Shown here: piece after piece, positions 10,417-31,164 of the stretch
Numbering within the stretch: the stretch's first letter is position 1
How the letters are laid out: each line of letters opens with the position of its first letter
Assembly: GCF_002000365.1 (NCBI RefSeq)
Contig: NZ_MVBK01000029.1
Span: 1 to 32,461 of the forward strand
Length of the DNA stretch: 32,461 bases
Source: Thioalkalivibrio denitrificans
GTDB taxonomy: Bacteria; Pseudomonadota; Gammaproteobacteria; Ectothiorhodospirales; Ectothiorhodospiraceae
Direction of reading: 5' to 3'
Translations under genes and position numbers: made by a program
Notes under the pieces: model-generated
Seen by the model: the letters and a program-made list of their open reading frames with translations, nothing else
The model's database searches: none
What the model was told of the DNA's origin: nothing

Positions 10417-12327
10417 ATGTTAAAGAATCTCAAGATCAGCACACGCCTTCTCGGCGGGATCGGCCTCATCCTGGTCCTCACCATCGCGGTGATCCTGCCC
10501 GTGGTCCTCTCCAATCTCTCGCAGATGAGTGAACGGGCAGAAGAGCGTCAGCTGCAGGATCTTTACCAGTCCCTGCGCGCCTCCATCGATGCCCAGTCGC
10601 AACGCGCGGAGGCCATGAGCGCGGCGATCAGCCACATTCCCGAGGTGCAGGCGGCGTTCGCCGCCCGGGACCGCGACAGGCTGATCGAGCTGACCGAGCC
10701 TTTGTTTCGCAATATGCGCGATACCCACGGCATCGAGCAGTTCCAGTTTCACGTCCCGCCTGCCACTTCGTTCCTGAGGGTGCACCGCACGGATCGTTAT
10801 GACGATGATCTCTCGTCGTTCCGCCACACGGTGGTCGAGACCAACCGCTCGCGCCGTCCCGTGCAGGGGCTGGAGGCGGGCGTGGCCGGGCTCGGTGTGC
10901 GCGGTGTCGTGCCCATGGTAAATCAGGGAGAACACACCGGTTCGGTGGAGTTCGGACTCACGTTCGGCCAGGCGTTCTTCGACGAATTCACGTCGGCGTT
11001 CGGCGCCGGCGCCGCCTTGCACATTCTCCGTGACGGCCAGTTCCGGGCCTTCGCCAGCACCATCGGCGAGGAAGCCCTGCTGGAGCGGCAGGATCTGGAC
11101 ACCGCGCTGCGCGGCGGTGTGGTCATGCGGCAGATGGTCCACGACGGGGTGCCGGTGGCCGTGCTGGGCAGGGTCATCGAGGATTTCACCGGTCAACCGG
11201 TGGGCGTGCTGGAACTGATGGTGGATCGCAGCGATTACGTGACCGGCTACCGGGACGCGTTCGCGTCGGTGGTGGGCGTGGGGATCGTGGTGCTGCTGCT
11301 GGGTCTGGCGTTCACCTGGGTCATTGCCCGCGGCATCGTCAAACCCCTGCATCTGACCGTCCAGCGTCTGGACGACATCTCCAGGGGCGAGGGTGATCTG
11401 ACGCAGCGTCTGCCCGTGGAGGGGAACAACGAGCTGTCGCGCCTGGCGGAGTCGTTCAATGCCTTCGTGACCAAGCTGCAGGAACTGATCCAGCAGGTGG
11501 CCGGTGCCACGGCGCAGCTTGCCGCGGCGTCCGAGGAACTGTCCGCCACGGCGGAGCAGACCACCACGCAGGTACGGCGCCAGCAGGGCGAGACCGAGCA
11601 GGTGGCCACGGCCATGAACGAGATGACCGCCACGGTCCAGGAAGTGGCCCGCAACGCCAACGAGGCCGCCCGTTCCGCCCAGGATACCGACAAGGAGGCG
11701 CGCGGCGGTCGCGAAGTGGTGAAGGCCACCATCAAGTCCATCGAAACGCTCGCCGCCGAGGTGGAAGCCGCAGGCGGCGTGATTCAGCGCCTGTCCGCCG
11801 ACAGCGAGGAGATCGGCAAGGTACTGGACGTGATCCGGGGCATTGCCGAGCAGACCAACCTGCTGGCCCTCAACGCCGCCATTGAGGCGGCCCGAGCCGG
11901 AGAACAGGGCCGCGGCTTTGCCGTGGTGGCCGATGAGGTGCGCAGCCTCGCCTCGCGGACTCAGTCCTCCACCCGCGAGATCCAGGAGATGATCGAGCGT
12001 CTGCAGGGCAATGCCGGCGGGGCCGTGGAGGCCATGGAGAAGGGACGCCTGCGTGCCCGTGAAAGCGTCGAGGAGGCGGCCCGGGCAGGGTCGTCCCTTG
12101 AGGCCATCACGGGGGCCGTGGGCAACATCAGCGACATGAACGCCCAGATCGCCAGTGCCGCCGAGGAGCAGTCGGCGGTGGCCGAGGAGATCAACCGCAA
12201 CGTGGTCAACATCCGCGAGGCCGTGGATGACACCGCCCAGGGCTCCGGACAGATCAGCACGGCCAGCGACGAGCTGGCGCGCCTGGCTGCCGATCTGCGC
12301 AACCTGGTCAGCCGCTTCCGGGTCTGA
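10417..12327 (+). CDS. Methyl-accepting chemotaxis protein with large periplasmic sensor
   Basis: The 636-residue transducer has membrane segments at about 9-33 and 283-305, a periplasmic domain of about 250 residues between them, a HAMP linker, and the cytoplasmic signalling domain with the conserved hairpin tip near 465-520 ([20 protein letters not shown]). The periplasmic part contains [18 protein letters not shown] and looks like a Cache-family sensor; the ligand is unknown. There is no C-terminal pentapeptide for CheR docking. The start at 10417 ([14 protein letters not shown]) is preferred because earlier in-frame residues are hydrophilic and come before a normal MCP start. The gene sits between fliK and fliL, flanked by hairpins, so it may be its own transcription unit. 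Confidence 0.93.
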
Positions 12328-12355
12328 CGCGCTCCCCGTCCGGCCATTCTGTGAC

Positions 12356-12383
12356 AGGTCGACCCGCAGTCGCGGGTCGGCCT
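12356..12383 (+). terminator. Strong hairpin after the MCP gene
   Basis: AGGTCGACCCGC pairs with GCGGGTCGGCCT around an AGTC loop, 12 bp with one G-U pair, 28 bases after the MCP stop. It is GC rich but has no T tract. It probably ends or stabilises the MCP message. Confidence 0.6.
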
Positions 12384-12503
12384 GGGTACCACCTTCGCTG
12401 CCGCCGCCCTCCTTCCCGGATCGTCCCGCACTGGTCGTCATCCCGCCAAGTTTTCGGCAGCCGCGCGCTGCCAGGCCCGTCAAAACTCCGTCATGTCCTG
12501 TGT

Positions 12504-12518
12504 CCATGTGACGCATGG
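12504..12518. promoter_or_regulatory. Palindrome upstream of the fliL sigma-54 promoter
   Basis: CCATG-TGACG-CATGG is a perfect interrupted palindrome about 40 bases upstream of the -24 element. It could bind an activator such as FleQ or FleR, but the site matches no motif I can name. Confidence 0.3.
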
Positions 12519-12555
12519 GATTGATTGGACGTGGGTTTTTATCCTGTATCTCCAT

Positions 12556-12571
12556 TGGCACGGCGATTGCT
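12556..12571 (+). promoter_or_regulatory. Consensus sigma-54 promoter of the fliL operon
   Basis: TGGCACGGCGATTGCT matches the sigma-54 consensus TGGCACG-N4-TTGCT at every fixed base. GG is at 12557-12558 and GC at 12569-12570. It lies 35 bases before the fliL ATG and probably drives the tightly packed fliL-to-flhA run, with FleQ or FleR as activator. The rest of the 279-base gap holds the MCP hairpin and the palindrome at 12504. Confidence 0.93.
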
Positions 12572-12606
12572 TTTGAACCACGTAACCACAGGAGCACAGA
12601 AACAAG

Positions 12607-13104
12607 ATGGCAGACACAGACGATCTCGACCTCAACGTGGAAGAGGCACCGAAGCCGAAACGCGGCAAGCTCTGGCTGATCATTGCCCTGGTCATCGTGC
12701 TGGGTGCGGGGGTGGCCGGTGGCCTGGTGTTCGTGGCTTCCGGCGAAGGGGAGGAGGCCGCCGAGGCGGCACCCGAGCCGCTGAAGGCTCCTGTCTACAA
12801 GGAGATCGACCCCCCACTCGTCGTGAACTTCCAGGGGCCGTCCCGTATTCGCTATGTGCAGGTGGGGATGGTGATCAGCTCCACCGACAAGCGGACCCTG
12901 GACGCCGTGGATCGGCACATGCCGGTGATCCGCAACAACCTGATCATGCTCCTGAGCGACAAGACCTACGAGGAACTCAACAGCCGGGAAGGCAAGGAGC
13001 GGACCCGGCAGGAAGTGCTCGACAACGTGCGCCAGGTGCTCTTCGAGCGCACCGGCGAGGCGAACATCGACGCCGTCTACTTCACCTCTTTCGTGATGCA
13101 GTGA
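12607..13104 (+). CDS. fliL: FliL, stator-associated membrane protein
   Basis: The 165-residue protein has one N-terminal membrane segment (about 22-45), an acidic linker, and the conserved periplasmic stomatin-like FliL domain ending in the typical VYFTSFVMQ. FliL rings surround the MotA/MotB-type stator and support torque at high load. It is the first gene after a consensus sigma-54 promoter. CACAGGAG upstream of the ATG gives a ribosome site. Only 3 bases separate its stop from fliM. Confidence 0.94.
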   Translation: MADTDDLDLNVEEAPKPKRGKLWLIIALVIVLGAGVAGGLVFVASGEGEEAAEAAPEPLKAPVYKEIDPPLVVNFQGPSRIRYVQVGMVISSTDKRTLDAVDRHMPVIRNNLIMLLSDKTYEELNSREGKERTRQEVLDNVRQVLFERTGEANIDAVYFTSFVMQ

Positions 13105-13107
13105 CCC

Positions 13108-14088
13108 ATGGCCCAGTCAGACCTGCTTTCCCAGGAAGAGATCGACGCCCTGCTGCACGGCGTCGACAGCGGTGACGTAGACACCGAGTCCGAACTCCAG
13201 GCACACGACGGCGTCGCCCGGCAATACGATTTCACCAGCCAGGACCGGATCGTGCGCGGGCGCATGCCCACGCTGGAGATGATCAATGACCGGTTCGCGC
13301 GCCATCTGCGCATCAGCCTGTTCAACCTGCTGCGCCGCTCGGCCGAGATCTCGGTGGGTGGTGTGAAGATGACCAAGTTCTCCGAGTACGTGCATTCGCT
13401 GTTCGTGCCTACCAGCCTCAACATGGTGAAGGTCAAGCCGCTGCGCGGCACGGCGCTGTTCGTGGTGGATCCGAAGCTGGTGTTCATTCTCGTGGACAAC
13501 TACTTCGGCGGCGACGGCCGCTATCACGCCAAGATCGAGGGGCGCGACTTCACCCCCACCGAGCAGCGCGTAATCCGCAAGACGCTGGACCATGCCTTCG
13601 CAGACCTGAAGAAGGCGTGGTCCCCGGTCACCGATCTGGAGTTTGAGTACATCAACTCCGAGGTCAATCCCCAGTTCGCCAATATCGTGACCCCCACAGA
13701 GGTGGTGGTGGTGTGTTCGTTTCACATCGAGCTGGACGGCGGCGGTGGCGATCTTCACATCACCATGCCGTACTCGATGATCGAACCCATGCGCGAACTC
13801 CTGGATGCCGGCATCCAGAGCGACCGCTCCGAGGTGGACGAACGCTGGATCCGCGCGTTGCGTGACGAGGTGAAGGTGGCCGAGGTGGAGCTTGCGGCGG
13901 ATCTCGTGGAGACCACGGTTAGCCTGCAGGACGTACTGCGGTTCAAGGCGGGCGATATCGTCCCGGTGGATCTGCCCGATACGGTCCTGTTGCGCGCCGA
14001 GGGCATTCCCGTGGTGCGGGGGCGCTTCGGCGTGTCGGAAGGCCGCAATGCAATCAAGGTGACCGAGCGCATCAGGCGTTCGGATTGA
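13108..14088 (+). CDS. fliM: FliM, switch protein and CheY-P receptor
   Basis: The 326-residue protein has the N-terminal CheY-binding motif LSQEEIDALLHGV (7-19), the CheC-like middle domain and the C-terminal SpoA domain that joins FliN. FliM builds the C-ring wall and turns CheY-P binding into a change of rotation. The length is normal. There is no clear ribosome site after fliL, so translation is probably coupled. The N-terminal motif has three look-alikes inside CheA of this same cluster. Confidence 0.97.
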   Translation: MAQSDLLSQEEIDALLHGVDSGDVDTESELQAHDGVARQYDFTSQDRIVRGRMPTLEMINDRFARHLRISLFNLLRRSAEISVGGVKMTKFSEYVHSLFVPTSLNMVKVKPLRGTALFVVDPKLVFILVDNYFGGDGRYHAKIEGRDFTPTEQRVIRKTLDHAFADLKKAWSPVTDLEFEYINSEVNPQFANIVTPTEVVVVCSFHIELDGGGGDLHITMPYSMIEPMRELLDAGIQSDRSEVDERWIRALRDEVKVAEVELAADLVETTVSLQDVLRFKAGDIVPVDLPDTVLLRAEGIPVVRGRFGVSEGRNAIKVTERIRRSD

Positions 14089-20440: not shown

Positions 20441-21715
20441 ATGAAAATCAGACGCTTTTTTGCACAGGACATGCGCCAGGCGCTGCGGCTGGTCCGGGAC
20501 GAACAGGGACCGGATGCCGTGATCCTCTCCAGCCGCAAGGTGGAGGGCGGGATCGAGATCGTCGCCGCGGTGGACTATGACCAGGAGCTGGTGATGCGCA
20601 TGGCCGCCGAACAGGGCGAACCGCGTGAACCGCTGCGCAAGCCGCAACCCGAAGCGCTGCTCACCGCGGTCGCTGACGAGCCGGAGATGCTCGAACCGGT
20701 CAGCGAGCCGCCGCGGCCCGATCCTGTCCAGGCCCGCCCCGCGATGCCGGAGGTGGTCTGGTCCCAGGATCCGACGCTGGTGGCCATGCAGCGCGAGATC
20801 GAAGGCCTGCGGGGCATGTTGCAGGACCAGCTGGCCAGCTTCGCGTGGAACGATTTTCGCCGGCGCGAGCCTGAGCGGGTGCAGATCATCCGGCGCCTGG
20901 TGCGACTCGGTCTGGACGAGACGCTTTCCCGGGAGATTGCCGCAGAGGTTCGCCACGTGACGGTACCCGACCGCGCCTGGCGCGAGGCGCTCTACGGGCT
21001 GGCGCGGCGCATTCCGGTCGAGGATGAAAAGATTCTCGATGGCGACGGCGTGATCGCGCTGGTAGGCCCCAGCGGTGTCGGCAAGACCACCACCATCGCC
21101 AAGCTCGCGGCGCGTCACATTCGCCGCCACGGCAAGCATTCCGTGGCACTGGTGACCACGGACGCCTATCGCATCGGCGCCTATCGTCAATTGCAGACCT
21201 TCGGTCAGATCCTCGGCGTTCCCGTCCATCTGGCTGAGACAGGACGTCAACTGGGCGATATCCTAATGGGCCTTGGCGACAAGCAAAGGATCTTCGTGGA
21301 TACCGCCGGGATGAGTCAGCGCGATGTGCGGCTCGTGGAGGAACTCTCGGGCCTGGCCGATATCGCGCGCCTGCGCACGTTGCTGGTGGTTGCCGCCAAT
21401 GCCCAGCAGGCCGTACTGGAAGAGACCTTCGACGCCTTCGGGCATCTGCCCCTGACGGGCACGGTGCTGACCAAGGTGGACGAGGCGGCCAGTCTCGGGC
21501 CGGTCATCTGTGCGCTTCATGGAGGAAATCTCCCGCTCGTGTACGTGAGCGAGGGTCAGCGCGTTCCGGAGGACCTTCAGCCTGCACGCGTTCAGCGCCT
21601 GGTCAGTCGGGCGGTTTCTCTTGCGGCGGAGCGTCGGACCCGGGGCGCCACGCCCGGCCGTGCCGCCACGACCCGTGAACACATGAGCCAGCATGTCCAT
21701 GTCCAGATCCAGTGA
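20441..21715 (+). CDS. flhF: FlhF, SRP-like GTPase for polar flagellum placement
   Basis: The 424-residue protein has the FlhF order: a basic N terminus starting MKIRRFFAQDMRQALR, a helical N domain, and a GTPase G domain with P-loop GPSGVGKT (209-216), the TTDAYRIGA region, the DTAGM switch motif and TKVDEA. FlhF marks the pole for basal body assembly. It is paired with FlhG, which overlaps its end by 23 bases. The ribosome site is weak (GAG runs 4-10 bases upstream). It follows a REP-like element, so its level may be set apart from flhA. Confidence 0.95.
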   Translation: MKIRRFFAQDMRQALRLVRDEQGPDAVILSSRKVEGGIEIVAAVDYDQELVMRMAAEQGEPREPLRKPQPEALLTAVADEPEMLEPVSEPPRPDPVQARPAMPEVVWSQDPTLVAMQREIEGLRGMLQDQLASFAWNDFRRREPERVQIIRRLVRLGLDETLSREIAAEVRHVTVPDRAWREALYGLARRIPVEDEKILDGDGVIALVGPSGVGKTTTIAKLAARHIRRHGKHSVALVTTDAYRIGAYRQLQTFGQILGVPVHLAETGRQLGDILMGLGDKQRIFVDTAGMSQRDVRLVEELSGLADIARLRTLLVVAANAQQAVLEETFDAFGHLPLTGTVLTKVDEAASLGPVICALHGGNLPLVYVSEGQRVPEDLQPARVQRLVSRAVSLAAERRTRGATPGRAATTREHMSQHVHVQIQ

Positions 21716-22598
21716 GAACAGCGCGGACCAGGCGGCAGGACTGCGCCGCATGAGCGCCCCGAGGCCGGTGCAGGTGATCGCCGTCACCAGCGGCAAGGGC
21801 GGTGTTGGCAAAACCAATGTCTCCGTGAACCTGGCGGTGGCGCTGTCCCAGGCGGGGCGCAGGGTCATGCTCATGGATGCGGACCTGGGACTGGCCAATG
21901 TGGACGTGCTGCTGGGGCTGCAGCCGCGCGCGAACCTGTCCCATGTGTTGCAGGGCGATCTGGGGCTGGAGGAGATCCTGGTGGAGGGGCCGGCGGGCAT
22001 CAGCATCGTGCCCGCGGCTTCGGGCGTGGCCCGCATGGCGGACCTGGCGCCGGCCGAGCACGTGGGCATCGTGCGTGCCTTCAGCGAACTGCCGCAGCCC
22101 CTGGATGTGCTGGTGGTGGATACCGCTGCGGGCCTGCATGACAGCGTGGTGAGTTTCTGCCGGGCGGTGCAGGAGGTGCTGGTCGTTGTCTGCGACGAGC
22201 CCGCCTCCATCACGGATGCCTACGCTTTGATCAAGGTGCTCAGCCGGGACAACGGCATTTCACGGGTGCGCGTGCTGGCCAACATGGTCCGCGGACCGGA
22301 AGAGGGCAGGAGCCTGTTCCGCAAGCTCACCGCCGTCTGCGACCGGTTCCTGGACGTGACGCTGGACTACGCGGGTGCGGTGCCCCATGACGATTACCTG
22401 CGCAAGGCTGTGCAGCGCCAGCAGGCGGTGACGATCGCCTATCCGTCGAGCCCCGCGGCGCGCGCATTCAAGGATCTGGCCCGCAAGGCCGATACATGGC
22501 CCATACCCGGTGGAAGCAGCGGGCGGATCGAGTTCTTCGTTGAGCGGCTCGTAGGGCCAGGTTCCAATGACAGGGGGGCCCTGTCATTAACGGATTAG
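21693..22598 (+). CDS. fleN: FlhG/FleN, MinD-type ATPase setting flagellar number
   Basis: The 301-residue ATPase has the N-terminal activator helix DQAAGLR (12-18), which stimulates FlhF in the known family, and the deviant Walker A KGGVGKT (35-41), followed by MDADLGLANVDVLLGL. Keeping DQAAGLR supports the start at 21693 over the ATG at 21750. FleN also restrains FleQ in Pseudomonas and so limits flagella to one. Its coding end contains a perfect 10 bp hairpin just before fliA. Confidence 0.95.
   Translation: MSMSRSSENSADQAAGLRRMSAPRPVQVIAVTSGKGGVGKTNVSVNLAVALSQAGRRVMLMDADLGLANVDVLLGLQPRANLSHVLQGDLGLEEILVEGPAGISIVPAASGVARMADLAPAEHVGIVRAFSELPQPLDVLVVDTAAGLHDSVVSFCRAVQEVLVVVCDEPASITDAYALIKVLSRDNGISRVRVLANMVRGPEEGRSLFRKLTAVCDRFLDVTLDYAGAVPHDDYLRKAVQRQQAVTIAYPSSPAARAFKDLARKADTWPIPGGSSGRIEFFVERLVGPGSNDRGALSLTD
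22566..22588 (+). other. Perfect hairpin in the fleN 3' end before fliA
   Basis: AATGACAGGG and CCCTGTCATT pair over 10 bp around a GGG loop. The stem ends 12 bases before the fliA ATG, next to where a ribosome would bind, and the only Shine-Dalgarno-like bases are a weak GGAT (22592-22595). The hairpin lies in codons for the poorly conserved FleN tail. A role in controlling fliA translation is inferred. Confidence 0.7.
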
Positions 22599-23438: not shown

Positions 23439-23831
23439 GTGGACAAGAACATGAAGATCCTCATCGTGGACGATTTCTCCACGATGCGCCGAATCATCAA
23501 GAATCTGCTGCGGGATCTCGGTTTCAACAATACCAGCGAAGCCGATGACGGCAGTACGGCGCTGCCCATGCTGCAGAACGGCAATTTCGACTTCCTGATC
23601 ACCGACTGGAATATGCCCAACATGCCGGGCATCGACCTGCTGCGCGCGGTGCGGGCGGACGAGAAGCTCAAGACCATGCCCGTGCTGCTGGTGACGGCCG
23701 AGGCCAAGCGTGACCAGATCGTCGAGGCGGCCGAGGCAGGCGTCAACGGCTACATCATCAAGCCGTTCACCGCCGAAACCCTGCGCGAGAAGATCGAGAA
23801 GATCTTCGAGCGCGTGAACGCGGGGGGCTGA
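23439..23831 (+). CDS. cheY: CheY, chemotaxis response regulator
   Basis: This 130-residue single receiver domain has the acidic pair D11-D12, phosphorylated Asp56 in ITDWNMP, the conserved Thr in VTAEAKR, and Lys in IIKPFT. Phosphorylated CheY binds FliM and reverses the motor. I chose the GTG at 23439 (giving [12 protein letters not shown]), because CGGAGG ends 5 bases upstream; the ATG at 23451 is 17 bases away. The cheY stop overlaps the cheZ ATG by one base. Confidence 0.96.
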
Positions 23832-24607
23832 TGGGGATGGACACGCCGGGCGTTGAAGAAAAAGAAGCCGAGATGCGTGCACGCCAGCTGGAGCGTGCCC
23901 GTCAACTGGTCGCGCACATGGAATCCGGCGACGACGACTCCGCGGGGCGGCTCATCGAGGAGCTTGGGCGCATGCATGAGAGCCTCATCTTCCAGGAACT
24001 GGGCAAGCTGACCCGCGACCTGCACGAGGCATTGAATGCGTTTCGTACGGACTCCCGGCTTTCGGAGATTGCCGAGACCGACATCCCCGATGCCAAGGAA
24101 CGTCTGAACTACGTGGTGACGCTCACCGAGCAGTCCGCGCATCGAACGCTGAATGCCGTGGAGGAGAGCCTTCCAATGGCAGAGAGCCTGGCTGGACGCG
24201 CCGGAGAACTTTCGGGTGTCTGGGAGCGCTTCAAGGCGCGGGAACTCTCGGCGGAGGAGTTCCGCCAGCTGAGCGCGGATCTGGGAGATTTCCTGAACCA
24301 GACGGGGCGCGATGCGGAAGTCATTCGCAAGAACCTGTCGGATGTGCTCATGGCACAGGACTTCCAGGACCTCACCGGGCAGGTGATTCGCCGCGTGATC
24401 AACCTGGTCCATGACGTTGAGCAGAACCTGGTCGGACTGGTGCGCATCTCCGGCGAGCGACTGTCCACGCCGGAGCAGAAGAAGAAAAAGCCAAAACAGA
24501 AATCGAACAAGGGCACAGGTCCGGCAGTACCCGGAACCGTCGACGGCAGCGATGTGGTCAGCGGCCAGGACGATGTGGACGATCTGCTGTCCAGCCTGGG
24601 TTTCTAA
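23831..24607 (+). CDS. cheZ: CheZ, CheY-P phosphatase
   Basis: The 258-residue helical protein carries the CheZ signature AQDFQDLTGQ (175-184), which includes the catalytic Gln, and ends in the CheY-docking peptide DDVDDLLSSLGF after a Lys-rich linker. CheZ removes phosphate from CheY and sets signal lifetime. A second in-frame ATG at 23837 is possible. It forms a tight pair with cheY. Confidence 0.95.
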   Translation: MGMDTPGVEEKEAEMRARQLERARQLVAHMESGDDDSAGRLIEELGRMHESLIFQELGKLTRDLHEALNAFRTDSRLSEIAETDIPDAKERLNYVVTLTEQSAHRTLNAVEESLPMAESLAGRAGELSGVWERFKARELSAEEFRQLSADLGDFLNQTGRDAEVIRKNLSDVLMAQDFQDLTGQVIRRVINLVHDVEQNLVGLVRISGERLSTPEQKKKKPKQKSNKGTGPAVPGTVDGSDVVSGQDDVDDLLSSLGF

Positions 24608-24675
24608 GTGATCCACGCCTGAAACGGCAGCGACGTGTGCGGCGAGCTCCGCCAGTGTGACCAACGAGGAACGGC

Positions 24676-26763
24676 ATGAGTCTGGATACCGAAGACGAGA
24701 TCCTGCAGGACTTTCTGGTGGAAGCCGGCGAGTTGCTGGACGCTCTCAGCGAGCAGCTCGTGGAACTGGAGCGCAATCCGGACGACCGGGATCTGCTCAA
24801 TGCCGTGTTTCGCAGCTTTCACACCATCAAGGGCGGTGCGGGTTTTCTTAACCTGAATAACCTCGTGGCGGTCTGCCACCGGGCGGAAGACGTGTTCAAC
24901 GTGCTGCGCCAGGGGCAGCGCCAGGTGGACAGCACCCTCATGGATGCTGTCCTCCAGGTACTTGATGTGGTGATCCGGATGTTCAACGAGGTGCGCGGCG
25001 GGGAGGAGCCGGGCCCCGCGGATCCGCAATTGTTGACGCTGCTCGAGTCCCTGGCCATGCCGGACGATGGCAGCGGGAGCCAGCCGGCGCCCCGGGCCGC
25101 CGAACCGGCGCCTGCGCCGGCAGCAGGGGAACCCGTGCCGGCGCCCGCTGAATCGAAGCAGGACAGCGGAGACATCACCGACGAGGAGTTCGAGGCGCTG
25201 CTTGACGCCATGCAGGCCGGCGGCACCCATCCTGCTTTGCCGACCAAACCGGCGGCTTCGGCTTCCACGGGGGCTCCCGTTCCGGACAAGAGCGAAGGCG
25301 AGATCACCGAGGACGAGTTCGAAAGCCTGCTCGACGAACTGCATGGCAAGGGGGCGGCGCCGGGCAACGGAGCAACGTCCGATGCGCCGACGGCCAAGGC
25401 ATCGGGAGGTTCCGGCAACGCGGACATCATCACCGAGGACGAGTTCGAGAACCTGCTGGATGAACTTCACGGCAAGGGCCAGGCGCCCAAGGAAGCACCG
25501 GTGTCTGTGTCGGGTGCGGGCGCCGAGCCGGCTCGCGCCGGCGCTTCGATCCCTGCCGTCGCGGCGAAGGCGAGCCCGGCGCCGTCTCCGCCGGCGGAGA
25601 CCTCTGTTCGCGTGGATACCCGCAGGCTCGACGACATCATGAACCTGGTGGGCGAACTGGTGCTGGTGCGCAACCGGCTCGCCACACTGCGCTCCAAGCT
25701 GGGTGACGAACAGGTGGCCAAGGCGGTCAGCAACCTGGACGTGGTCACTGCGGACCTGCAGAGCGCCGTGATGAAGACGCGAATGCAGCCGATCAAGAAG
25801 GTGTTCGGCCGCTTCCCGCGGGTCGTGCGTGACCTGGCTAGAAGCCTGAACAAGGAAATCAATCTGGAGCTTCGCGGCGAGGAGACCGACCTGGACAAGA
25901 ACCTGGTGGAGGCCCTGGCCGATCCGCTGGTTCACCTGGTGCGCAACGCCGTGGATCACGGCATCGAGTCCCCGGAAGAGCGGGAGAAGGCGGGCAAGCC
26001 GCGCACCGGTCACGTGGTTCTGTCCGCCGAGCAGGAGGGTGATCACATCCTTCTGACCATCTCCGACGACGGCAAGGGCATGAATCCCGACGTGCTGCGC
26101 GCCAAGGCGGTGGAAAAGGGCCTGATGGACGAGGACGCCGCCGCGCGCATGAGCGATCAGGATGCCTACAACGTGATCTTCATGGCGGGCTTCTCCACCA
26201 AGGCCGAGATCTCCGACGTATCGGGGCGGGGCGTCGGCATGGACGTGGTGAAGACCCGCATCGCCCAGCTCAACGGTAGCGTCGAGATCGACTCCACCCT
26301 GGGGCAGGGGAGCGTGTTGCGGATCAAGGTGCCGCTCACGCTGGCGATCCTCCCCACCCTCATGGTGGTGCTGGGCGAGCAGCGCTTTGCCCTGCCGCTG
26401 TCCAACGTGAGCGAGATCTTCGATCTGGATCTGTCCCGTACCAACCGCGTGGATGATCAGGAAGTGGTCATGGTGCGCAACCAGGCGCTGCCCCTGTATT
26501 ACCTGCGTCGCTGGCTGGCGCCCAACGCGCCTCCGGTGGAGGACAAGGCGACACAGCACGTGGTCATGGTGTTCGTGGGCAACCGGCGCGTGGGGCTGGT
26601 GGTGGACAGCCTGATCGGTCAGGAAGAGGTGGTCATCAAGCCGCTGGGTTCCACGCTGCACGGCCTGCCCGGGTTTGCGGGCGCCACCATCACCGGTGAC
26701 GGCGGCATCGCATTGATTCTCGATGTGCCGGGTCTGCTGCGCACCTACGCGAAGCGTTTCTAG
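24676..26763 (+). CDS. cheA: CheA, chemotaxis histidine kinase with three FliM-like motifs
   Basis: The 695-residue kinase has an N-terminal HPt domain with His49 (FRSFHTIKGG), a long Ala/Pro-rich linker (about 130-305), the dimer domain, a HATPase with LVRNAVDHGIE, DDGKGM and GRGVGMDVVK, and a C-terminal CheW-like domain. The folded P2 domain of E. coli CheA is not visible. Instead the linker holds three copies of an acidic motif, starting near residues 166, 209 and 250: DITDEEFEALLD, EITEDEFESLLDELHGKG and IITEDEFENLLDELHGKG. These resemble the CheY-binding N terminus of FliM. CheA phosphorylates CheY and CheB in the receptor array. The gap before it (68 bases) holds only a short GC-rich stem. 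Confidence 0.97.
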   Translation: MSLDTEDEILQDFLVEAGELLDALSEQLVELERNPDDRDLLNAVFRSFHTIKGGAGFLNLNNLVAVCHRAEDVFNVLRQGQRQVDSTLMDAVLQVLDVVIRMFNEVRGGEEPGPADPQLLTLLESLAMPDDGSGSQPAPRAAEPAPAPAAGEPVPAPAESKQDSGDITDEEFEALLDAMQAGGTHPALPTKPAASASTGAPVPDKSEGEITEDEFESLLDELHGKGAAPGNGATSDAPTAKASGGSGNADIITEDEFENLLDELHGKGQAPKEAPVSVSGAGAEPARAGASIPAVAAKASPAPSPPAETSVRVDTRRLDDIMNLVGELVLVRNRLATLRSKLGDEQVAKAVSNLDVVTADLQSAVMKTRMQPIKKVFGRFPRVVRDLARSLNKEINLELRGEETDLDKNLVEALADPLVHLVRNAVDHGIESPEEREKAGKPRTGHVVLSAEQEGDHILLTISDDGKGMNPDVLRAKAVEKGLMDEDAAARMSDQDAYNVIFMAGFSTKAEISDVSGRGVGMDVVKTRIAQLNGSVEIDSTLGQGSVLRIKVPLTLAILPTLMVVLGEQRFALPLSNVSEIFDLDLSRTNRVDDQEVVMVRNQALPLYYLRRWLAPNAPPVEDKATQHVVMVFVGNRRVGLVVDSLIGQEEVVIKPLGSTLHGLPGFAGATITGDGGIALILDVPGLLRTYAKRF

Positions 26764-26805
26764 GAGCACGTCCATGGCGATTCACCGGCGAAGGAGTGAT
26801 GATCG

Positions 26806-28724: not shown

Positions 28725-29681
28725 ATGGCCCGACGTCACAAGAAGCACGAGGAACATGTAAACCACGAGGCGTGGGCGATCCCCTATGGGGATCTCATTA
28801 CGTTGCTGCTGGCGTTCTTCGTCGTGATGTACGCCATCTCCTCGGTGAACGAAGGCAAGTACAGGGTCCTGTCGGATTCCCTTGTGGCGGCCTTCAGGTC
28901 CACGCCCAAGGCGCCGGATCCGATTCAGCTGGGTGAAGTGGGACGCAGGGCGGATCAGGGTCAGCAGCAGATGCCGCGCACCATTGCGCCGTTTGACCTG
29001 GGCGTGCCGCTGGATCCCGGCGTGCCCATCGACTCGGATATCCCCTTGGATCCCGTACCCGAACCGGAGGCGGGTGCCGTGGACCGCGGTGTCGACGAGC
29101 TGCTCAGGGGGACCGAGCTGGACGAGGAAACCTTCCAGGAGGCGGCCGAAGGCATGCAGCGCATCGCCGACGAGATCGAGGAGGCGGTTTCGCCGCTCAT
29201 CGAGGCGGACCTGATCCGCATGCGCCGGGACCGCTTCTGGATCGAGGTGGAGATCAACACCAGCCTGCTGTTCGCAAGCGGCAGTGCACAGTTGTCCGGG
29301 GATGCAATCCCGGTGCTGGAGCGCCTGGCGGGCATCCTGCGCGATTTTCCGGCGCGCATCCACGTGGAGGGTTTCACCGATACCGTGCCCATCAGCACGC
29401 CGGTGTTTCCCTCCAACTGGGAACTGTCCGCGGCGCGTGCCGCCAGCGTGGTGCACCTGTTCACGCGCAACCAGCTGGATCCCACGCGCATGGCGGCTAT
29501 CGGCTACGGAGAATACCGACCGATCGCGTCCAACGAGACCGCGGAAGGCCGTCGTCAGAACCGGCGGGTGACCATCGTGGTGCTGGCCGATCGTCGCCCC
29601 CGCGTGGAGAACGGCACGGATCCCGAATATCTTCGCGAGGACCTGGAGGAGATGCTGCTTCCGGTGGAGGAACAGGCGTGA
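28725..29681 (+). CDS. motD: MotD (MotB family), stator subunit
   Basis: The 318-residue protein has a short basic start, a single membrane segment (about 21-41) with the ion-binding Asp23 in PYGDLITLLLAFF, a plug/linker rich in Pro and Asp, and a C-terminal OmpA-like peptidoglycan-binding domain (about 165-310) with VEGFTDTVPI and ELSAARA. It anchors the stator to the cell wall. The coupling ion (H+ or Na+) is not decided here. The ATG at 28725 follows a heptad array and lacks a nearby Shine-Dalgarno sequence. Its stop overlaps the parC ATG by one base. Confidence 0.95.
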   Translation: MARRHKKHEEHVNHEAWAIPYGDLITLLLAFFVVMYAISSVNEGKYRVLSDSLVAAFRSTPKAPDPIQLGEVGRRADQGQQQMPRTIAPFDLGVPLDPGVPIDSDIPLDPVPEPEAGAVDRGVDELLRGTELDEETFQEAAEGMQRIADEIEEAVSPLIEADLIRMRRDRFWIEVEINTSLLFASGSAQLSGDAIPVLERLAGILRDFPARIHVEGFTDTVPISTPVFPSNWELSAARAASVVHLFTRNQLDPTRMAAIGYGEYRPIASNETAEGRRQNRRVTIVVLADRRPRVENGTDPEYLREDLEEMLLPVEEQA

Positions 29682-30472
29682 TGCGGGTCTGGGCCGTGGC
29701 CAACCAGAAGGGAGGCGTCGGAAAGACCACCACGGCGGTGACCCTGGGCGGCCTGCTGGCGGCCCGCAACCGGGAAACCCTGCTGGTGGACCTGGATCCT
29801 CACGGCTCACTGACCGTGTACCTCGGCCTCGATCCGGAGCAGGTGACCGGCGGGGTGTATGAGCTTTTCCAGCGTGCCGCATCGGGTGCGCGCGCAGACC
29901 CCGGGGAGTCCGTGCTCGCGACGCGATTCGATCACCTTCACATCATGCCCGCGTCCACCGCCATGGCCACCCTGGACCGACAGCTGGGCACGCGGGAAGG
30001 GATGGGGCTGGTACTCAAACGTGCGATGGCTTCGCTCACCGCACGCTTCGATACCGTGATCATGGACTGTCCTCCGATGCTGGGCGTGCTCATGGTGAAT
30101 GCGCTTGCGGCGTGTGATCGTCTGCTGATTCCGGTGCAAACGGAGTTCCTCGCCATCAAGGGGCTGGAACGCATGCTCCACACGCTGGACATGATCCGAC
30201 ATTCACGGGGCATGCGCCTGGATTCCGTGGTGGTCCCCACCCTGTTCGATCGCCGCACGCGGGCCTCCACGCGCAGCCTGCGTAAACTTCGCGATGAACA
30301 TGCCGATAACCTGTGGGAAGGGGTGGTGCCGGTGGATACCCGGTTTCGGGAAGCCAGTACGGCGGGGGTGCCGCTTCCCCAGATGTCGCCGGACGCGCGG
30401 GGCGTGGAGGCCTATGCGCGCCTGCTGCGGTACCTGGAAGACAACGATGAAGCGCACAGGGCGGCATCATGA
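29681..30472 (+). CDS. parC: ParC, ParA-type ATPase for chemotaxis array positioning
   Basis: The 263-residue ParA-family ATPase has Walker A KGGVGKTT (about 9-16), VDLDPHGSLTVYLG and the DCPPMLGVLM Walker B region. In this position, after motD and before a CheW-like gene, it corresponds to PA1462 of Pseudomonas and ParC of Vibrio, which place chemoreceptor arrays at the pole and pass them to daughter cells. ATG at 29681 is preferred over the overlapping GTG at 29678. It is distinct from FleN, which lacks the double-Thr Walker end (KTN). Confidence 0.88.
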   Translation: MRVWAVANQKGGVGKTTTAVTLGGLLAARNRETLLVDLDPHGSLTVYLGLDPEQVTGGVYELFQRAASGARADPGESVLATRFDHLHIMPASTAMATLDRQLGTREGMGLVLKRAMASLTARFDTVIMDCPPMLGVLMVNALAACDRLLIPVQTEFLAIKGLERMLHTLDMIRHSRGMRLDSVVVPTLFDRRTRASTRSLRKLRDEHADNLWEGVVPVDTRFREASTAGVPLPQMSPDARGVEAYARLLRYLEDNDEAHRAAS

Positions 30473-31164
30473 GCGAACACAGGAACACAGGGGTGCTGCT
30501 GGACGAGCGCCGTGCGCTCACCGAGTACCTGGACAGTCTGTTGCAGGAGATCCCGACCGCGCCGGAACCGGCGGTCGTTGCACCGCAGCCCCGCATCCAG
30601 ATCCCCGCGCCGGTACGCGAACCGGTGGTCGAAGCGGGCGAGGCGGTGCGTACACAGCCCGCGAGCGCAGTCGGCGAACCGGTGCGACCGGACTGGGCGG
30701 AGGGTACGTTTCAGTGCCTGACGTTCTCGGTGGCGGGCCTGACGCTTGCGGTGCCATTGGTCAAGCTAAACGGGGTGATCGAGGTGCCCGAAGAGATTAC
30801 CCCCATGCCCGGCCATCAGCCGTGGTTTCTGGGATTGATCCGGCATCTTGAGCGCCAGGTCAAGGTGGTGGACATCGGTCGTATCGTGCTGCCGCAGGGA
30901 CGTGAGTACTCACCGGTTGAGCCGGCGCACGTGATCCTGATCGATGATTCCCGCTGGGGCATCGCCTGTGAAGGCGAAACTCAGATGCTGACGCTCCCGG
31001 AACACGGCGTGCGCTGGCGCACCAGCCGTGGCAAGCGGCCCTGGCTGGCGGGAACGGTGATCGAGCACATGTGTGCCATACTGGACGTGGATGCGCTCGC
31101 ATCCGAGCTGGCCACGGGACAGTGGAGTGCAGCGGACGCCGCCAAGGATTCGGGATCGGGGTGA
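30469..31164 (+). CDS. parP: ParP, CheW-like array integration protein
   Basis: The 231-residue protein has a Pro/Ala-rich N-terminal half (about 25-75) and a CheW-like domain from about residue 80 (FQCLTFSVAGLTLAVPLVKL). By context it matches ParP of Vibrio, which links ParC to the chemoreceptor array through its CheW-like domain and CheA contact. It overlaps parC by the ATGA motif. The name rests on gene order and domain type; it could simply be called a CheW-domain protein. Confidence 0.83.
   Translation: MSEHRNTGVLLDERRALTEYLDSLLQEIPTAPEPAVVAPQPRIQIPAPVREPVVEAGEAVRTQPASAVGEPVRPDWAEGTFQCLTFSVAGLTLAVPLVKLNGVIEVPEEITPMPGHQPWFLGLIRHLERQVKVVDIGRIVLPQGREYSPVEPAHVILIDDSRWGIACEGETQMLTLPEHGVRWRTSRGKRPWLAGTVIEHMCAILDVDALASELATGQWSAADAAKDSGSG

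Follow-up and report, generated by a model that had tools for sequence, protein, structure and literature searches.

The chemotaxis kinase CheA encoded in the window (the whole stretch of 32,461 nucleotides of Thioalkalivibrio denitrificans that was analyzed) carries three copies of a conserved 21-residue motif in the linker between its P1 and P3 domains, and no P2 domain is recognizable there. Judged from sequence conservation, these repeats appear to be a genuine, old, and multivalent docking array that stands in the place of P2. We tentatively propose that the main ligand of this array is CheY, or possibly CheB, and that the array acts as a substitute for P2.

The kinase belongs to a flagellar and chemotaxis cluster that comprises fliM, fliN, fliO, flhA, flhF, flhG, fliA, cheY, cheZ, and cheA and continues past cheA with cheB, motA, motB, parC, parP, and cheW. 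The names parC and parP are putative and follow from gene order and from likeness to the published ParC/ParP pair. Two very long antisense frames are also present, one of 723 aa opposite cheA (24604-26775, − strand) and one of 832 aa opposite an upstream gene (10420-12918, − strand); they are probably by-products of high G+C codon use.

Repeats and domain layout of the window CheA

The cheA gene (24676..26763, + strand) encodes a protein of 695 aa with the architecture P1–linker–P3–P4–P5, in which Pfam recognizes Hpt (residues 8-97), H-kinase_dim (309-368), HATPase_c (416-555), and CheW (562-689). The linker, taken from the Pfam Hpt to the H-kinase_dim domain (24967..25599, + strand), is rich in Ala and Pro and bears the repeats: repeat 1 (GDITDEEFEALLDAMQAGGTH, aa 165-185, 25168..25230, + strand), which has no HGKG tail, repeat 2 (GEITEDEFESLLDELHGKGAA, aa 208-228, 25297..25359, + strand), and repeat 3 (DIITEDEFENLLDELHGKGQA, aa 250-270, 25423..25485, + strand). 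They match a repeat profile, built from the repeats of relatives and window copy 2, with E-values of 4.8e-8, 4.4e-11, and 5.1e-11, respectively. Searching the whole 3.6 Mb genome with this profile returned these three places only, the next match having an E-value of 2.3. The three copies that a first-pass annotation of this DNA had noticed in the linker are thus real, and the residue numbers and the interval (25171-25476) that it gave for them are right within a few residues. Over the 21-residue windows, copies 2 and 3 are 81% identical, and copy 1 shares 43-48% of its residues with the others. Because third codon positions agree poorly between the window copies (only 38-67%), the identity sits at the protein level, and a tandem repeat at the DNA level is ruled out. 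Chance resemblance of the copies is excluded by their conservation together with the genome-wide profile scan. The motif is contained in none of the solved structures, and a literature search confined largely to non-subscription papers returned no earlier notice of such a motif in CheA.

The repeats share the consensus I-[ST]-x-x-E-F-[DE]-x-L-L-D-x-L-H-G. We take the I-[ST]-x-x-E-F start to be a hydrophobic staple with a capping box and the H-G end to be a Gly cap, and each copy reads as a self-capped amphipathic helix, one face of which is formed by F0, L3, L4, and L7. The AlphaFold2 model of P1 and the linker from a relative, Marinobacter litoralis (L019), consists of P1 and isolated helices at residues 158-172, 201-212, and 247-258, which are set in a low-confidence chain with no strands.

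Neither of the P2/CheY-binding domains (PF09078, PF07194) was matched by Pfam in the window CheA, and no P2 was found by Pfam in the P1-linker parts of 25 relatives or in the CheAs of three further loci (L009, L052, and L174). The same search detects PF09078 in E. coli CheA at 8.2e-17, which served as a positive control, and the earlier remark that no P2 is visible is borne out. A folded P2 in the repeat segment, named earlier as a finding that would speak against docking, was found neither by Pfam nor in the linker model of the relative, which has no folded domain or strand between P1 and P3. As a marker of kinase type, P2 was rejected: PF09078 occurs in only one of 229 genomes sampled from the class, and its absence alone says little. 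The second CheA of the same genome (L108 1441-3525, − strand, contig C49) has no Pfam P2 match and no repeats, and its P1–P3 region, with Trp and Gly-Asn-Asp-Pro, looks folded.

P2 and the repeats occupy the same place between P1 and P3, and the repeats would serve the same purpose, but P2 is a folded domain, whereas the repeats are predicted to be isolated helices in a disordered linker. According to the available text of a CheA survey (PMC10782961), more than half of all CheAs lack P2 and have an unstructured stretch instead, and P2 is judged dispensable; the words “motif”, “repeat”, and “ParP” are absent from its main text as available. The same text states that CheY is still phosphorylated, if slowly, by E. 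coli CheA without P2, which counts against the need for a dock. On the other side, E. coli CheY is reported to bind P2 of CheA with an affinity of 0.5 uM and isolated P1 with 900 uM (available text of PMC5705603), and since P2 binds CheY far tighter than isolated P1, a substitute dock would be expected in a CheA that lacks P2.

Distribution and conservation of the repeats

Eighty relatives of the window CheA were gathered partly with repeat words as search patterns, and this set favors repeat carriers. Automatic cutting of 78 of these linkers gave 40 with four copies, 35 with three, and 3 with two; the remaining two (L039 and L043) both show copies on other inspection. As an unbiased sample, we took 229 genomes spread evenly over the class. 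Of these, 91 were matched by the repeat profile (E <= 0.05), and a search with CheA P3–P5 found 95 genomes at E <= 1e-100, 89 of these at E <= 1e-119. Counting the repeats across the CheAs of relatives, a check that the first-pass annotation had suggested, showed them in 88 of the 89 CheAs within the stricter threshold, with 1-8 matches per genome; the linker of the 89th (G225) is lost at a contig end. The six more distant CheAs of the class sample (E <= 1e-100 but beyond 1e-119) contain no repeats, and three genomes with repeats are outside the CheA list (G064, G162, and G238). Given the range of 1-8, a copy number of three is not special. In a sample of the phylum, 40 of 299 genomes matched the repeat profile, all of them within the same class.

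The highest count, eight matches, belongs to a genome with a CheA frame of 1073 aa (G045:C33 around 10613-11218, − strand). In G238, a CheA-linker remnant of 119 aa with repeats lies between fliA and motA (L186 1498-1857, − strand); cheY, cheZ, and cheB are missing from this locus, as is the remainder of cheA, and its che operon is either decayed or misassembled.

Conservation within the motif was assessed on 193 non-first copies from the 78 automatically cut relatives, found by a scan that required F/Y at position 0, D/E/Q at +1, and hydrophobic residues at +3 and +4. Ile is present at −5 in 193 of 193 copies, S/T/N/D at −4 in all, and Glu at −1 in 191, followed by L3 (190), L4 (192), D5 (189), L7 (184), H8 (188), G9 (188), and G11 (183). 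When the tail, [LIMF]HGxG, served as the sole anchor of the scan, F0 was present in 191 of 191 copies, L3 in 188, L4 in 191, and D5 in 190; with I[TSND][DEQ]x[ED] as the sole anchor, F0 was present in 246 of 252. First copies (n=78) keep the core (E-1 in 76 and L4 in 75), and their H-G-x-G tail is mostly lost. The median spacing between copies is 41 residues (range 24-62, n=193 spacings). The invariant positions make free use of synonymous codons, and in the linkers of relatives, which are otherwise unconserved, the only recurring words besides the copies are Ala/Pro ones.

Candidate ligands of the repeats

The proposed ligand, CheY, is encoded upstream of cheA (23451..23831, + strand; Response_reg 1.8e-30); its closest solved chains are CheY, and it carries R92, Q94, V103, and R117 (E. 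coli numbering). The window also provides two comparators. The N-terminal CheY-binding motif of FliM, LSQEEIDALLHGV, which the first-pass annotation had quoted, is found at 13126..13164 (+ strand), and the C-terminal peptide of CheZ, VSGQDDVDDLLSSLGF (24557..24604, + strand), which we take to be CheY-binding, is kept in CheZ of 79 relatives. The repeats and LSQEEIDALLHGV have a common helix pattern, with hydrophobic residues at 0, +3, +4, and +7 and a capping box, and CheZ SGQDDVDDLLSSLGF has the same pattern with a less exact match. Like the FliM EIDALL motif and the CheZ peptide, each repeat is predicted to be an amphipathic helix that is N-capped and carried by a flexible tether, and it has the acidic core E-hydrophobic-D/E-x-L-L-x-x-hydrophobic, with its hydrophobic residue at +7. 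The repeats differ, however, in being internal (aa 165-270 of 695) rather than at a protein end, in being repeated, in their HGKG tail, and in having Phe in all tail-anchored copies at position 0, where FliM and CheZ have Ile or Val (Val in 79 of 79 CheZ proteins).

Sequence similarity to FliM is weak. In 13-mer comparisons with BLOSUM62, copies 1, 2, and 3 match the FliM N-terminus with p-values of 2.8e-5, 4.1e-4, and 8.2e-4, 20% of the 193 later copies reach p < 1e-4, and similarity to CheZ is weaker still. FliM/CheZ PSSM scores of the repeats are not outstanding, the PSSM being dominated by near-invariant training sets. Across the 13-mer and PSSM comparisons, FliM N-termini were extracted for 15 of the 28 genomes. 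The parts common to repeats and FliM are generic helix-start signals, which are also present in SHOCT and EF-hand sequences. The earlier description of the repeats as FliM-like therefore holds for the helix pattern, whereas the similarity in sequence is modest. FliM peptides prefer phosphorylated CheY, and a dock of this kind would retain the product of phosphotransfer and not its substrate, which counts against docking.

Structure prediction of CheY with the repeats was performed in cis, by modeling cheY, out-of-frame cheZ filler, and the P1-linker of L019 as one chain through the stop codons with AlphaFold2. Mean pLDDT over ten-residue blocks was 64-75 for copy 1, 85 for copy 2, and 80/78 for copy 3 with CheY, compared with 65-80, 83, and 74/78 without it. 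CheY, itself poorly modeled in this chain (TM about 0.75 to solved CheY), thus did not raise confidence in the repeats, and the contrast is weak evidence for or against docking. In the relatives, cheY lies upstream of cheA at 79 of 80 loci (the 80th begins inside cheZ), but any che operon would be expected to have cheY near cheA. At two loci, L195 (G034) and L197 (G159), there is no cheZ between cheY and cheA.

Among 76 CheY partners of repeat kinases, all have Q94 and V103, 67 have R92, and 74 have K117. Positions 92, 94, 103, and 117 are reported to be altered where CheY has switched from CheA-F6 to CheA-F7 kinases, and three of them face P2, while 117 is located in the FliM-binding helix (PMC7184735, available text). 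In Pseudomonas aeruginosa, the polar signals of CheY-EYFP and CheA-CFP overlap, according to the available text of PMC12410967, so CheY is retained at the arrays; the CheAs examined here from other Pseudomonas have no P2 match and contain repeats. Taken together, the earlier proposal that the repeats dock CheY is partly supported, by real, conserved docking-type motifs, the helix pattern in common with FliM, the missing P2, and the adjoining cheY; AlphaFold2 gave no sign of the docking itself.

The strongest rival to CheY docking, absent from the first-pass annotation, is that the repeats constitute the CheA LID, which binds the AIF domain of ParP, with the arrays tethered polarly through ParP and ParC and no docking of CheY. 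We regard this as a possible but rather unlikely full account. The available texts of PMC5706961 and PMC7534058 describe the LID as an extra region before P3 that is bound by the ParP AIF domain and is said to occur only in CheAs with ParC/ParP. The repeats are an extra conserved region in the same part of CheA, likewise in polar flagellates, and a parC–parP pair is present in the operon of the window (parC, ParA-like, 29678..30472, + strand, AAA_31 4.1e-43; its partner parP, with a CheW-like AIF domain, 30469..31164, + strand, CheW domain 1.1e-15). Because the repeats are the only conserved part of the linker in the relatives studied, they very likely correspond to the published LID (Ringgaard 2014), taken here as later papers describe it. 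ParP matches were found in 71 of the 229 class genomes, namely in 70 of the 91 with repeats and in G225. Of the 21 repeat genomes without a ParP match at E <= 1e-8, 19 had the genes surrounding cheA inspected for their order (G181 was not among these, and G238 was looked at separately), and ParC was searched for in 11 of the 21, with G102 as a positive control. In ten genomes, parC is present and ParP is either divergent or missing (G068, G122, G130, G159, G167, G169, G170, G176, G204, and G224), G024 has a ParC-level match elsewhere in the genome (206.5 bits), G100 meets a contig end and is left unassigned, and G238 has only the remnant. In eight genomes from six families (G013, G022, G034, G181, G183, G038, G203, and G165), neither ParC nor ParP was detected, and 1-4 repeats are kept. 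Their best ParA-type matches score 117-144 bits, compared with 196-330 for true ParC and 100-145 for background ParA matches in ParC-bearing genomes. In five of them, the operon is contiguous, and cheW directly occupies the expected place of parC/parP; the copies kept are four in G013, two in G022, one in G034, two in G183, and three in G203, the last with the core but no HGKG tail. Unlike the LID as described in those texts, the repeats thus also occur independently of ParC/ParP, and ParP is not the sole reason for their presence. At other Pseudomonas loci (L017, L020, L047, and others), a ParC homologue with 50-54% identity follows motB, in contrast to P. aeruginosa, which the available text of PMC12410967 states to be without ParC/ParP-related genes.

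Docking of FlhG/FleN through an EIDAL-like pattern had been raised in the first-pass annotation as another option, there with a view to array-to-pole contacts; it would link the arrays to flagellar number control. FlhG binds the FliM N-terminus in polar flagellates (PMC12826062, available text), and flhG/fleN (21693..22598, + strand; ParA-type ATPase 9.5e-21) is located between flhF and fliA in the same cluster as cheA. However, fliA comes directly after flhF, with flhG missing from this position, in Oceanospirillum sediminis, O. multiglobuliferum, Maribrevibacterium harenarium, and Marinomonas algarum (L012, L018, L032, and L074, with no flhG upstream of cheY), and the CheAs of these four species have 3-4 good copies; this option is weakened to the point of being very improbable. 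An unlikely alternative of a different kind is that the repeats act within or between kinases, through self-association or binding to P1, P4, or P5, as SHOCT-like helices that tune activity or array packing. The repeats resemble SHOCT more than FliM (in a comparison with a SHOCT-like 13-mer), the Pfam SHOCT model reaches 28.2 bits summed over the window copies (cut-off 27) and matches 23 of 25 relatives, and both have the start G-x-I-T-x-E-E-F-E of the second SHOCT helix (PF09851). Yet only positions 11-27 of 28 are matched, the first helix is missing, L-L is at +3/+4, and the location is internal, whereas 89.2% of proteins with SHOCT have it close to their C-terminus, and the test run by the authors of SHOCT gave no support to oligomerization (PMC3581485, available text). 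Membership in SHOCT was rejected for the partial match and the internal location. An EF-hand was rejected as well: the Gly of loop position 6, corresponding to −7, is present in 3 of 193 copies, and EF-hand models matched 2 of 7 CheAs searched, only at E >= 0.04. Since eight genomes keep the repeats without detectable ParC/ParP, and four species keep them with flhG missing from the locus, a second ligand besides ParP is likely, most plausibly CheY.

Proposed role of the docking array

For CheY as this ligand, we propose that short docking helices are strung on a disordered tether where other CheAs have P2 and that they would hold CheY, perhaps CheB, close to phosphorylated P1. CheY would be gripped on the same face that FliM and CheZ use, and several sites could raise its local concentration. 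In lineages with ParP, the array would very likely also be the LID gripped by ParP. A broader and more speculative picture is that, in the motility kinase of polar-flagellated Gammaproteobacteria, P2 has been replaced by a tunable string of 1-8 FliM-mimic helices, that CheA, CheZ, and FliM compete for one face of CheY, and that ParP shares the array. If true, CheY capture and polar tethering would be coupled through one array.

A nearly invariant repeated motif, predicted to be helical, fills the P2-less stretch in every checkable CheA of one large class. The repeats are therefore a concrete candidate for how kinases without P2 recognize CheY and a candidate for the physical identity of the ParP-binding LID, and signaling could be tuned through their copy number.
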